From Halorhabdus amylolytica (GTDB lineage Archaea > Halobacteriota > Halobacteria > Halobacteriales > Haloarculaceae), in assembly GCF_004944975.1 (NCBI RefSeq), contig NZ_SPQG01000009.1, forward strand, positions 62,001 through 126,000: a stretch of DNA of 64,000 nucleotides, in the 5' to 3' direction. Below the pieces are notes generated by a model. The model did not search any database and had not been told where the DNA came from. It saw only the letters and a list, made by a program, of their open reading frames with translations. A program made the position numbers and the translations under genes. Shown one piece after another: positions 6,567 to 50,196 of the stretch (the stretch's first letter is position 1; the number at the start of each line of letters is the position of its first letter).

Positions 6567-7742
6567 ATGACGATCATCGTCACCGGCGGCGACGGTCACA
6601 TCGGGTGGCCGACCGCGCTCCGCATCGCAACTCGCACCGACGACCGCGTAATTCTCGTGGACAACTTCGCCCGGCGGGAGTGGGTCGAGGAGGTCGGTTC
6701 GGTCAGCGGCGTCCCGATCGCCTCGATCGACGAGCGGATCGAGGCTGCCGAGGAGGTCCACGGCGTGACGAACCTCTCGTTTGTCGAAGGGGATCTCGTC
6801 GAGAAGTCCTTCGTCGACGAACTGCTTGCCGTTCACGAACCCGACACGATCGTCCACACGGCCGCCCAGCCCTCCGCGCCGTATTCCCAGATCAATGGTG
6901 AGCGGGCCAACTACACCCAGCACAACAACATGCAGGCCACGCGGAACCTGCTGTGGGGCCTGGAGGCACACGACCTGACGGACGCCCACTTCATCGAGAC
7001 GACCACGACCGGCGTTTACGGCGCCCCCGAGTTCCCGATTCCGGAGGGCGGTGCGACCATGGAGAATCAGGGCGAGGAAGACGAGGTCCCGTTCCCGGCG
7101 ATGGCAGGGAGCTGGTATCACCTCACCAAGAGCCACGACGCGGCGAACATGCGCCTGGCCCACTCGCAGTTCGACATCCCCATCTCGGACGTACGGACGG
7201 CGATCACCTACGGGACGGGAACCGAGGAGACGGCCGCCGACCCGCGACTCACGACGCGCTTCGATTTCGACTACTACTTCGGCGTCGTCGCTCACCGCTT
7301 CGCCGCCCAGGCGGTTGCTGGCTATCCGATGACGGTCTACGGCAAGGGCGAGCAGCGCAAACCCTTCATCGCGCTGGAGGACGCCGTCGAGGGGCTGGCC
7401 CGTCTGGCCCTCAACGATCCCGACGACCGGCCGGCTGAGCACGTCGTCTACAACCAGGTTACTCGTGCGATCTCCATCGTCGAGGTCGCAGAGACCATCG
7501 CCGACGTCGCCGGCGAGTACGATCTCGACGTCGCGGTCGAGCACTTCGAGAACCCTCGCGACGAGGACGAGACCCACAAGATGGAGATCGAGAACGACCG
7601 CTACGCCGATCTCATCGACGGTCAGGACACGACCTTCGAGGAGGGTGTCCGGTCGATCCTGGGCACGCTGGTCGAGTATCAGGACCGGATCACGGCCCAC
7701 GAGGATCGGTTCCTCCCCGGCGTGCTGACTGACGGCGAGTGA
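6567..7742 (+). CDS. NAD-dependent epimerase/dehydratase, UDP-sulfoquinovose synthase (SQD1/Agl3)-like
   Basis: This 391-residue extended SDR has the dinucleotide loop TGGDGHIGW at the N-terminus. It matches the SQD1 family in several blocks: IASIDERI near residue 51, QPSAPYSQIN then YTQHNN (about 101-121), TTTTGVYG (about 145-152), WYHLTKSHD giving Tyr184-x3-Lys188, and VYGKGEQ. SQD1 enzymes convert UDP-glucose and sulfite to UDP-sulfoquinovose; Sulfolobus Agl3 does so for S-layer N-glycans. It is the first gene of a three-gene operon behind a TrmB-type operator. Family membership is strong, but the actual product here (sulfoquinovose or a related sulfosugar nucleotide) is inferred. Confidence 0.75.
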   Translation: MTIIVTGGDGHIGWPTALRIATRTDDRVILVDNFARREWVEEVGSVSGVPIASIDERIEAAEEVHGVTNLSFVEGDLVEKSFVDELLAVHEPDTIVHTAAQPSAPYSQINGERANYTQHNNMQATRNLLWGLEAHDLTDAHFIETTTTGVYGAPEFPIPEGGATMENQGEEDEVPFPAMAGSWYHLTKSHDAANMRLAHSQFDIPISDVRTAITYGTGTEETAADPRLTTRFDFDYYFGVVAHRFAAQAVAGYPMTVYGKGEQRKPFIALEDAVEGLARLALNDPDDRPAEHVVYNQVTRAISIVEVAETIADVAGEYDLDVAVEHFENPRDEDETHKMEIENDRYADLIDGQDTTFEEGVRSILGTLVEYQDRITAHEDRFLPGVLTDGE

Positions 7743-42547: not shown

Positions 42548-43519
42548 ATGAGCGAAACAAACACGCGAACGCGACTCGACAAATCGTCGGCAGTGACCGA
42601 AGAGGAAGAGGAATCGACGGACGTGACCTGTCCGGAATGTGATGGCAACCTCGTCTCTGACACCGAGCGTGGCGAGACCGTCTGTGTCGACTGTGGCTTG
42701 GTCGTCGAAGAGGACGAGATCGACCCCGGTCCGGAGTGGCGTGCCTTCGACGCCAAGGAGAAAGACCAGAAGTCCCGCGTCGGCGCCCCGACCACCAACA
42801 TGATGCACGATAAGGGGCTCTCGACCAACATCGATTGGCGGGACAAGGACGCATACGGCAACTCCCTGGGTGCCCGCCAGCGCGAGAAGATGCAGCGTCT
42901 CCGGAAGTGGAACGAGCGCTTCCGCACTCGCGACAGCAAGGAACGCAACCTCAAGCAGGCGTTGGGCGAGATCGACCGCATGGCGAGCGCCTTGGGCCTC
43001 CCCGAGAGCGTCCGTGAAACCGCCTCCGTCATCTATCGCCGGGCGCTGGACGAAGATCTCCTTCCCGGCCGCTCCATCGAGGGCGTCTCGACGGCCTCTG
43101 TGTACGCTGCCGCCCGCCAGGCAGGCGTCCCCCGGAGTCTCGACGAGTTGACCGAAGTCTCCCGCGTCGAGAAAGACGAGATCGCCCGGACGTATCGGTA
43201 CGTGGTCCGGGAACTCGGCCTCGAGGTCAAGCCCGCCGACCCCGAGAGCTACGTCCCACGGTTTACCTCTGATCTCGAACTCAGCGAGGAGGCCGAGCGT
43301 CGCGCCCGCGAGCTTCTCCAGAACGCCAAAGAGGAGGGCGTCCACTCCGGAAAGAGTCCCGTCGGCCTCGCTGCAGCGGCCATCTACGCTGCCTCGCTTT
43401 TGACCAACGAGAAGACCACGCAGGCCGCGGTCAGCGAGGTCGCTGACATCTCCGAGGTCACCATCCGCAACCGCTATCACGAACTCCTGGAAGCCGAGCA
43501 GTCGATCCCTGCCGCCTGA
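42548..43519 (+). CDS. tfb: Transcription initiation factor IIB (TFB)
   Basis: 323 residues with all TFB parts: zinc ribbon (CPECD ... CVDCG, about 28-50), B-finger/reader (PEWRAFD, about 60-80) and two cyclin repeats (about 130-215 and 225-315), the second with AAAAIYAASLL and ISEVTIRNRYHELL. It recruits RNA polymerase to TBP-bound promoters. Haloarchaea have several tfb genes, and this complete form is likely one of the general ones. It lies between aglD and an htr gene; a second, very divergent TFB-like protein is 5 kb downstream. Confidence 0.95.
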   Translation: MSETNTRTRLDKSSAVTEEEEESTDVTCPECDGNLVSDTERGETVCVDCGLVVEEDEIDPGPEWRAFDAKEKDQKSRVGAPTTNMMHDKGLSTNIDWRDKDAYGNSLGARQREKMQRLRKWNERFRTRDSKERNLKQALGEIDRMASALGLPESVRETASVIYRRALDEDLLPGRSIEGVSTASVYAAARQAGVPRSLDELTEVSRVEKDEIARTYRYVVRELGLEVKPADPESYVPRFTSDLELSEEAERRARELLQNAKEEGVHSGKSPVGLAAAAIYAASLLTNEKTTQAAVSEVADISEVTIRNRYHELLEAEQSIPAA

Positions 43520-47123: not shown

Positions 47124-48287
47124 TCACTTCTCGATGATGGACTCTTCGACGGCCTCGCCGAAGTGCCGGGCGGTCGCTTCGTGATAGATCAAGATCTCGT
47201 CGCCGACGTCCAGATCTGTCACCGCCGTCCGCCCGTCGGGTGTGGCAACCTTGATCGTCTCGGCGTTCTGTAGTAGTGTCTCGATCGTATCCCCGTCCTC
47301 TGTCTCGGCCTGGACTCGGAACATGGGTCGCTGTTCGATCTTCGCGCGGCCGACGATCGCCTCGCGAGTGTTGCCGTCGGTGTCGACGACCTGAACCTCG
47401 TCGCCGCTCGCCAGTTCCGAGAGGTACTTCGTCTCGCCGCCGGGCGTGCGGACGTAGGCGTGGACTGCGCCGGCGTTGACTCGGAACGGTCGTGAGGCGA
47501 CGTACGGCGACTCGGCGGTCTCGGCGTGGACGAAGAACAGACCGCGGGCCATCGATCCTACCAGCATCCCTTCGTCGTGGTTCATGATCGACCCCGTGTC
47601 GACGCAGACGCGGTCGGCCGAGCCGGTCTGTTCGATCGCCGTGATCTCGGCGTACTGCAGATCGAGGGTCTCCCGTCCTACGGCATCTCTGACTTCGCAC
47701 GTCTCGCGGATCTCGTCGGGGTCGTCAGTGTCCAGCAGAACGGCGTCAGCACCGATTTCCAGGGTTTCGTAGGCCGTGCGGGCGTCTTCGGCCGTCTGGA
47801 CCCCGGCGATCAGCGTCGTCTCCTCGCCGACGCGAGCGATCAGGTTCTCCAGAGGGATAATCTGCCAGTCCTCGGCGACCACGAGCGTGTATTCGGCCTC
47901 TGTGGCGACCGCCTCGGCGAAGGCCTCGTAGGACTGATCGAAGATGCGGACGTATCCGCCGTCGGCACCGTCGCTCCGGAGCGCCGAGAGATCAGCCGAA
48001 CCCGAGAAATCCGATGGCAGGTCGACCGTGCCGTCGCCCTCGCCGTCCTTGCCGACGATCATCGCATCGGCCGCCGGCGCGTCGTTGGCCTCGGCTTCCA
48101 TGACGTGGACGTCGTCGCCGACGAAGGCGGCGACGTTGACCTCGCCGAGCTCCCGGACGCGTTCGACGTCGCGTTCGTCGACCAGCACCCAGTCGACGCC
48201 GGCCTCTAGTCCCGCGGTGATTCGTCGCTTGCGCGCCTCCCAGTCGCCGACGGCGTCGTCGGCCTTGAGCCACACGGAGCGTGTCAT
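47124..48287 (-). CDS. aroB': 3-dehydroquinate synthase II (archaeal type)
   Basis: 387 residues matching the archaeal DHQ synthase II family, including KADDAVGDWEARK at the start, AVLLDTDDPDEI, and VDTGSIMNHDEGMLVGSMA followed by PYVASRPFRVNAGAVHAY. The enzyme oxidatively deaminates and closes ADH (2-amino-3,7-dideoxy-heptulosonate) to 3-dehydroquinate with NAD. Its substrate comes from the aroA' product at 51552-52346. The C-terminal half is rich in beta strands, as in the family. It is monocistronic here, and the divergent partner is the TFB-like gene. Confidence 0.95.
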   Translation of the reverse strand: MTRSVWLKADDAVGDWEARKRRITAGLEAGVDWVLVDERDVERVRELGEVNVAAFVGDDVHVMEAEANDAPAADAMIVGKDGEGDGTVDLPSDFSGSADLSALRSDGADGGYVRIFDQSYEAFAEAVATEAEYTLVVAEDWQIIPLENLIARVGEETTLIAGVQTAEDARTAYETLEIGADAVLLDTDDPDEIRETCEVRDAVGRETLDLQYAEITAIEQTGSADRVCVDTGSIMNHDEGMLVGSMARGLFFVHAETAESPYVASRPFRVNAGAVHAYVRTPGGETKYLSELASGDEVQVVDTDGNTREAIVGRAKIEQRPMFRVQAETEDGDTIETLLQNAETIKVATPDGRTAVTDLDVGDEILIYHEATARHFGEAVEESIIEK

Positions 48288-48426
48288 GTCTCGACACTTG
48301 CGGGGGGCCGGCTTGAACGTGGCGGATCACGCGATCGAGTTACCACGTCCGAACCAACGATCCGTGCCGTCGGTTTTCCGTTCCGTTCATCCAACAATTA
48401 AGAGCGTGGACGTAGAACTCCCCTGC

Positions 48427-50196
48427 ATGGCAGGAAAAGAGTCCAACGAGTCCTACGAGAGTCGCCTCTACGACGTAGCCGAGCGGTTACAGATTCCGGA
48501 CAGTACACTCCAGATCACCCGTGTTCGCCTCGATCGTCTCAGTGGCGAGTCGGAGGTCGACACGGCCCAACTCGATCGGATCGCGCCCGCGGTCCTGGCG
48601 CTGTCCTGTCGGGAGGACGGCCTCCCGATCACCGATCGGGACATCGTCGAGCCGTGGGTAGCACTGCTCGCGGATCCCGAGAATTCGGGTCTCGACCCCG
48701 GACACCTGCCGGAGCAGATCGAGGCAGTCGCGGACCGACTGGACATTGATCATCCCCCTGAGCGACCCGATGTCCTGGTCGGGCGCTACGCCGACGCACT
48801 GGACATGCCCGACGCAGTCGGAACGGTCGCGGGACGGATTCTCCGGGACACGTTCCAGAAGGCGCCGAAGATCGTCGCCGAGGCTTCTTCGCCGGGGGAG
48901 ACCGCCGGCGCGGCGCTCGTCCTCGCGGCGGAGGCCAACGGCGCCGAGGGGTTCGGTCCGAGTGACGTCGCCGACGTCAGCGCGGCCGGTGGCGTCACGA
49001 TCAAGAACCGGTACAACGCCTTCCGGGACGAGCTGGGCGAAGAGGCCCTGAACGCTGAGCGGTATCAGGCGGCTGCCGTCGAGGCGACCTCCGACGCGGA
49101 TGCCAGGGAACCTGATGCGCAACCGCCGGCCACGGACGTCGACGCGGACGGCGAGTCGGGTGACGCGACCGCGACTGACGGGGCCGAAACGGACACTTCC
49201 GACGCCGCGGAGGCGAACGGTGACGGCGAGGCTGATTCCGCTGTCTCGGCTGGGGAGTGTATGGACGCCGTCCACGAGATGTTTCCGGACGAACTCCCGA
49301 CGACGGCGACCGTCGCTGAGGCACTCGACGCACCCGAGGAACCCGTCGGGAATCGACTGGAGACGCTCGCGGACGACGGCGAGCTAGCGGCCAGACGAGC
49401 CGGCGAAACCGTCGCCTGGATCCCGGGCGACCGGGAGGAACTCGATGCGAACCTGACGATCGACGCCGTCCAGGGCGAGGTCGACGCGCTGGCGGAAACC
49501 CTCGGGGTCGACGCGTCCCTGCGGCTGTTCGCCCGTGGTCTGGTCAGCGACGCCGTCGAGGACGTTCCCGTCGAGGACGGAGCCGAGTTCGCCGGGGCCG
49601 CCCTGGTCGCCAGTAGCCGACTCAACGACGGCGACCTCGATCCCGCGACTGTCGCGACCGAACGCGACTTCGAGCCACGTGCACTCTATACCTGGATCGG
49701 CCGTCTCGGAGAGACCGCCGATGTCGATATCCCCCAACGGGGCCCCTCGGACGTTGTCGAGTCCCTCGCCGAAGACCTGGCCCTCTCCGATCGGGTTCGC
49801 GAAGAGAGCCTTCGGACGCTCGATCACTACCGCCCGGAAGAGAACGGCTCATTCGCTCCGCCTGAACTGGCCGCCGGTGCCGTCTTCTTCGCGGCGACGA
49901 CTGTCCGAGAACCGATCGATGTCGACGAACTCGCCGACAGTATCGGCTTCGAGACGAGTCACGTCTCCGACGCGATGAACAGCGTCTTCGTCTCACTGTG
50001 TCGGCGTCTGATCCGCGGCGAGATCGACTACGGGGAGTCGCCCTGGACGGCCGAACTGCTGGAGTCCGACCACATCGCCGAGATCGGTGATCCCCACACC
50101 GGCCGCGTCGTCGCCGCCGCCAAGACCTATATCGCCGGCCGCGAGGACGAACACGTCGACGAAGGGACGCTGGACGTCCTGCTCGCCGAAGACTGA
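48427..50196 (+). CDS. Multi-cyclin-fold TFB-like protein without zinc ribbon
   Basis: 589 residues. Residues 115-203 closely resemble a TFB cyclin repeat: SPGETAGAALVLAAEAN, then DVSAAGGVTIKNRYNAFRDEL (compare ISEVTIRNRYHELL of the TFB at 42548). Residues 343-433 (AEFAGAALVASSRLN ... PRALYTWIGRL) and 439-527 (PPELAAGAVFFAATT ... TSHVSDAMNSVF) repeat the pattern more weakly, and 12-86 may be a fourth. An acidic linker (215-277) and a winged-helix-like segment (279-335) sit between the pairs. There are no zinc-ribbon cysteines and no B-finger. It may be a transcription factor related to TFB that does not contact polymerase in the usual way. TATA-like caattaag at about 48393. Confidence 0.65.
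   Translation: MAGKESNESYESRLYDVAERLQIPDSTLQITRVRLDRLSGESEVDTAQLDRIAPAVLALSCREDGLPITDRDIVEPWVALLADPENSGLDPGHLPEQIEAVADRLDIDHPPERPDVLVGRYADALDMPDAVGTVAGRILRDTFQKAPKIVAEASSPGETAGAALVLAAEANGAEGFGPSDVADVSAAGGVTIKNRYNAFRDELGEEALNAERYQAAAVEATSDADAREPDAQPPATDVDADGESGDATATDGAETDTSDAAEANGDGEADSAVSAGECMDAVHEMFPDELPTTATVAEALDAPEEPVGNRLETLADDGELAARRAGETVAWIPGDREELDANLTIDAVQGEVDALAETLGVDASLRLFARGLVSDAVEDVPVEDGAEFAGAALVASSRLNDGDLDPATVATERDFEPRALYTWIGRLGETADVDIPQRGPSDVVESLAEDLALSDRVREESLRTLDHYRPEENGSFAPPELAAGAVFFAATTVREPIDVDELADSIGFETSHVSDAMNSVFVSLCRRLIRGEIDYGESPWTAELLESDHIAEIGDPHTGRVVAAAKTYIAGREDEHVDEGTLDVLLAED

Follow-up and report, generated by a model that had tools for sequence, protein, structure and literature searches.

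The open reading frame at 48427-50196 of the window (the whole stretch of 64,000 nucleotides analysed here) encodes a real protein of 589 amino acids, and the gene is under purifying selection (dN/dS 0.15-0.22 in seven pairs). The frame stays open 5' of the ATG at 48427, back to position 47944; relatives from other genera start at the equivalent place (MSN.. or MSS..), in support of this ATG. The gene is divergent from a 3-dehydroquinate synthase II gene, and the downstream gene faces it on the other strand. A TATA-like AATTAA about 26-31 nt upstream of the ATG would fit a leaderless haloarchaeal mRNA. An ordinary TFB gene in the same window lies outside the system and served as comparator. 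The features are as follows, with residue numbers of the protein where applicable.

48396-48401, forward strand: AATTAA, TATA-like, recognized by eye only
48427-50196, forward strand: whole gene, stand-alone, 589 aa (ATG at 48427, stop at 50196)
48454-48744, forward strand: cyclin repeat 1 of the N-core, residues 10-106 (profiles, AlphaFold2)
48751-49044, forward strand: cyclin repeat 2 of the N-core, residues 109-206 (PF00382, profiles, AlphaFold2)
48991-49029, forward strand: remains of the BRE recognition helix, residues 189-201, GVTIKNRYNAFRD (alignment)
49093-49242, forward strand: acidic linker, residues 223-272, disordered in the AlphaFold2 model; its length and sequence differ among relatives
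49249-49425, forward strand: winged-helix-like piece, residues 275-333 (AlphaFold2), present in most relatives
49447-49725, forward strand: cyclin repeat 1 of the C-core, residues 341-433 (profiles, hhalign, AlphaFold2)
49726-50022, forward strand: cyclin repeat 2 of the C-core, residues 434-532 (profiles, hhalign, AlphaFold2)
50023-50193, forward strand: private C-terminal segment, residues 533-589, with the highest conservation in the protein
42548-43519, forward strand: ordinary TFB with zinc ribbon, B-reader region and core (comparator)

The genome holds about 11 other TFB loci, some of which are partial or broken, and one TBP gene. One locus (L104, C25:34112-34587) is a broken TFB copy with repeat 1 out of frame. 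Another (L105:1153-2094, on C11) encodes a TFB that has diverged strongly; it has a zinc ribbon but no recognisable B-reader region, and its branch length in the core tree is 2.0.

Within its 589 residues the protein holds two TFB-type double cyclin cores, both of them complete (residues 10-206 and 339-532). A sequence-only reading of the locus had proposed an acidic linker and a winged-helix-like piece between two pairs of repeats, and both are seen in the AlphaFold2 model, with residues 223-270 disordered and the winged-helix-like piece predicted as helices 275-285, 293-299 and 304-316 followed by strands 320-325 and 328-333. The latter piece gives weak GntR/TrmB/HTH matches and is absent from the Halomicrobium (g21) members and from genomes G049, G061 and G074; Halapricum sp. 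CBA1109 is likewise listed without it. In one relative (L080:6472-8334, genome G345) a long Gly-Ser repeat (SSGSSG) makes up some of the linker.

The assignment of the N-terminal half is based on sequence profiles and on the model of the whole protein. Pfam recognized a single region in the window protein, the TFIIB repeat PF00382 at residues 114-200 (E 2.8e-7, exceeding the curated cut-off), and the NCBIfam TFB model matched two stretches (E 1.8e-10). The earlier reading had aligned residues 115-203 by eye with a TFB repeat and had named profile searches and structure prediction as checks; the former returned TFB for this region, and the latter predicted TFB/TFIIB-like cyclin folds. Seventeen full-length sequences were aligned, with identities to the window protein from 80% down to about 41%. 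Every one of the 17 relatives has PF00382 (best E 4.4e-23), and several show two TFIIB stretches by Pfam. The N-terminal half of the full-length profile aligned to haloarchaeal TFBs over repeats 1 and 2, with per-genome values of 1e-16 to 1e-21, and a profile of residues 8-214 matched PDB entries of TF(II)B from Pyrococcus (6.5e-14) and human (about 2e-11). Residues 12-86, previously offered as a possible fourth repeat, are accordingly repeat 1 of the N-core. Relative to TFB this repeat is longer by about 11 residues, inserted behind helix D and including a conserved Trp.

The C-terminal core gave no Pfam match from single sequences, so that a check by Pfam alone would falsely refute the second pair of repeats. 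Nevertheless, a profile of the C-terminal half alone (residues 339-589) matched ordinary TFBs across repeats 1 and 2, with a best per-genome value of 4e-11, and reached 0.0018 against the PDB entry of Pyrococcus TFB. When independently made alignments were compared by hhalign, the N-terminal half matched TFB cores with a probability of 99.6% (E 5e-24), the C-terminal half matched them with 98.0% (E 3e-13, 162 columns), and the two halves matched each other with 96.8% (E 2e-10); the controls, 20 column-shuffled and two reversed alignments, all stayed at or below 0.85%. AlphaFold2 gave a pLDDT of 88.7 and a pTM of 0.83 for the C-terminal half, for which a separate fold search was made. The model aligned with 1d3u_B and 7egb_R at Z 15.4 over 193-204 residues (rmsd 5.7-6.5), and TFIIB cores (Pyrococcus TFB and human TFIIB, Z about 15) ranked above cyclins, which share a similar fold and reached a Z of about 13 for one repeat; the profiles likewise indicate TFB. 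The suggestion that 343-433 and 439-527 are cyclin repeats is thereby confirmed. For the whole protein the pLDDT was 81.9 and the pTM 0.50, the latter too low to settle how the halves lie relative to each other. In the core tree the N- and C-terminal halves were joined weakly and with a long-branch warning, and the second core could therefore have arisen by internal duplication or by fusion.

A TFB zinc ribbon (CxxC...CxxC) recruits RNA polymerase. CxxC is absent from all 17 relatives, which shows that the ribbon is missing, and Pfam gave no Zn_Ribbon_TF match in the window protein. Since the N-core starts at about residue 10, there is no room for a B-reader or B-linker either. The picture of a duplicated cyclin array devoid of polymerase-contacting parts, drawn before from the letters, thus stands, with four repeats supported by profiles and structure prediction.

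The basic residues on the DNA and TBP side of the TFB core were assessed in 15 conserved columns, defined by Lys or Arg in at least 80% of the rows of 31 haloarchaeal TFB cores. TFBs keep 97% of these positions, the N-terminal halves 31% and the C-terminal halves 15%. Two loops have been lost, GRS in repeat 1 and GKSP in repeat 2, the former being a DNA-contacting loop in TFIIB. TFB R217 is replaced by Asp or Glu in 16 of 17 N-terminal halves. Net charge per 100 residues is -2.3 in TFB cores (sd 1.6, n=32), and averages about -11 to -12.0 in the N-core and -16.1 in the C-core. Acidity is a general trait of haloarchaeal proteins and by itself proves little, and some haloarchaeal DNA-binding proteins may need few basic residues to function when salt is high. 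Taken together, the loss of most basic residues and the strong acidity of the cores make promoter binding in the manner of TFB unlikely.

Remnants of DNA recognition are confined to the N-core, whose recognition helix has a near-invariant V190 and invariant N194 and R195; position 193 varies between K, R, E and Q (K or R in 13 of 17). In the C-core the basic helix is replaced by V-S/T-D/E-A-M/T-N. The conserved N-core residues could be read as belonging to a sequence-specific regulator that would bind operator DNA by its recognition helix and winged helix, with the second core as dimerisation or effector part. The weak GntR/TrmB/HTH matches of the winged-helix piece speak for such a role, as does the retention of the recognition helix in the nearest zinc-ribbon-less relatives, which belong to another haloarchaeal family. 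Nevertheless, we regard it as unlikely given the strong net negative charge, the missing GRS and GKSP loop residues, the absence of the winged helix from several relatives and the E at position 193 in Halomicrobium-type members.

In repeat 1 of the N-core, charges are reversed in the D1-E1 region, where the insertion also lies; we take this region to be associated with TBP contact in TFB. This bears on the idea, raised in the sequence-only reading, of a competitor. Such a protein would act as a dominant-negative TFB, taking the place of TFB on TBP or activators, recruiting no RNA polymerase and so damping initiation. What stands of it is the core fold that touches TBP in TFB, combined with the absence of the zinc ribbon, and with some 11 TFB loci against one TBP gene competition for TBP would matter. 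What has weakened it is the altered D1-E1 region together with the general loss of basic residues; moreover, one degraded core would suffice for this purpose, which explains neither why there is a second core nor why the C-terminal segment is conserved. On balance such competition appears unlikely.

The C-terminal segment (residues 533-589) escaped the earlier reading, although it is the most conserved part of the protein. In the 17-sequence alignment its mean majority is 74%, 18 of its 57 positions are invariant, and it follows the pattern WTxDLLES...GDSxTGR..A.AKTY.AGRE..VD..T.D. Searched alone, it turned up in single copy in those 19 haloarchaeal genomes, out of 391, that have the full-length protein, and among 247 genomes sampled throughout the phylum it returned family members plus three weak matches (E 0.002-0.009).

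The full-length protein occurs once in each of these 19 genomes (of 391 from the class), which belong to six genera of one family: six in Halorhabdus (g1), five in Halapricum (g3), three each in Halomicrobium (g21) and g5, and one each in g18 and Halorientalis (g20). An additional member lies on a plasmid of Haloarcula rara. With the single protein as query, a search of GTDB contigs for close relatives gave no match; the alignment as query did find relatives. Phage records and IMG/VR viral contigs yielded no relative, and the top matches of a BFVD fold search were solely viral TFIIB-like proteins and cyclins. One apparent relative (G087:C38) turned out to be an ordinary TFB. In Halorhabdus the gene adjoins the 3-dehydroquinate synthase II gene, and in a Halorhabdus genome without it (G036) about 105 bp separate that gene from the next conserved, aldolase-type gene. 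Between genera the neighbours differ and no gene neighbourhood is conserved, suggesting a trans-acting role rather than part of a fixed operon.

Two TFB-type cores in one chain might invite the interpretation, likewise put forward from the letters, that the protein is a general initiation factor of a new kind or forms a bridge from one promoter to another. A general factor is disfavoured by the distribution, the gene being missing from 372 of the 391 haloarchaeal genomes, among them the Halorhabdus relative with its clean empty site. A bridge is disfavoured by the loss of most DNA-contact residues: neither core keeps the basic set of TFB, and the C-core has lost nearly all of it. Both roles are very improbable.

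With regard to known systems, each half is like archaeal TFB and eukaryotic TFIIB in being a double cyclin core (PF00382) by profile and predicted fold. Unlike them, the family has no zinc ribbon or B-reader/linker, carries two cores per chain, has lost most of the basic surface and possesses a private C-terminal segment. As it departs from TFB in three defining features (zinc ribbon, B-reader/B-linker and basic core residues), it should not be called a TFB but a derived relative. Brf1/Brf2 and Rrn7/TAF1B comprise a zinc ribbon and one cyclin pair. The likeness to these lies in the TFIIB-type cyclin pair with lineage-specific C-terminal additions, and Brf2 aligned with the C-terminal half at a Z of about 14.

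Sulfolobus TFB3 keeps its zinc ribbon, has a lost or shortened rather than a doubled core, and is DNA-damage inducible. Compared by description only, it has lost other parts than the present family, in which the zinc ribbon is gone and the cores are complete and doubled. Like the family, TFB3 is a TFB paralogue off the canonical plan; it cannot substitute for TFB, yet activates transcription alongside TFB (PMC7289017). By analogy, the window protein could be a trans-activator assisting a canonical TFB. TFB paralogues acting in trans have this precedent (PMC7289017), and the patchy distribution is what one would see for an accessory stress or niche factor. However, TFB3 is truncated differently and a shared part other than TFB descent is not demonstrable here, and we consider such a role unlikely.

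Other haloarchaea have TFB cores that also lack a zinc ribbon (L076, L078 and L077; L129, L130 and L134). They differ from it in having a single core, other C-terminal parts or none, and 47-51% of the basic residues kept. L076, L078 and L077 are the best profile matches outside the family (1e-34 to 1e-37), and they share the Trp-bearing repeat-1 insertion with the window protein; they come from another haloarchaeal family. The first two (L076:6515-7765 and L078:6652-7944; family f4, genus g40) are single cores with a long tail that by eye has the look of ribbon-helix-helix repeats and gave no Pfam match, and L077 (ORF ending at 7088) is seemingly the core alone. The other three (L129:1318-1959, L130:768-1376 and L134:1423-2079; family f7, genus g36) are stand-alone cores of about 200 residues that start near MDIEALRE or MDIDALRE, keep the GR, GKSP and TIRNRYQ elements and form a separate branch in the core tree. 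A further TFB (L131:1057-2046, genome G054) has linker and core intact and has lost all zinc-ribbon cysteines, with Zn_Ribbon_TF only below the cut-off.

We favour the reading, with a probability of roughly one half, that the window protein is a TFB-derived accessory regulator acting mostly via protein contact, as a scaffold or co-regulator. Stripped of most basic residues and acidic, both cores would keep the protein off the TBP/TATA/BRE promoters that TFB occupies, and the cyclin folds and the C-terminal segment would instead bind protein partners. Candidate partners are activators whose usual contact is TFB, regulators of other kinds, or components of the initiation machinery. Any DNA contact would be auxiliary at most, made by what is left of the recognition helix in the N-core and by the winged helix where present, and the protein would act in trans. 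Judged from its sequence, a factor of basal transcription has apparently become what is probably a protein-binding factor.

Retinoblastoma (pocket) proteins have two cyclin-fold pairs per chain, used for protein binding. The likeness is an analogy of architecture only, with no sequence relation seen; no Rb chain was among the fold matches listed and Pfam gave no Rb match, an absence that is uninformative. It is a doubtful but conceivable extension of the protein-contact reading that the family represents archaeal "pocket-like" co-regulators, whose doubled cores, devoid of promoter and polymerase contacts, would now bind sequence-specific activators or repressors in parallel to Rb-type proteins.

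The expansion of TFBs in haloarchaea is well known (PMC4230888), and the literature treats the paralogues as full-length initiation factors that are deployed in combination (PMC4230888, PMC7289017). In the open-licence literature we found no published description of a doubled TFB core, or of a TFB core without zinc ribbon, in haloarchaea. A conserved protein with two TFB cores that is unable to recruit polymerase would mean that in at least one archaeal clade the TFB fold has come to serve another purpose, and further zinc-ribbon-less TFB cores occur nearby in haloarchaea. As the gene is naturally dispensable and found in the culturable genera Halorhabdus, Halapricum, Halomicrobium and Halorientalis, it may offer a test of whether the cores of a basal factor can become regulators.
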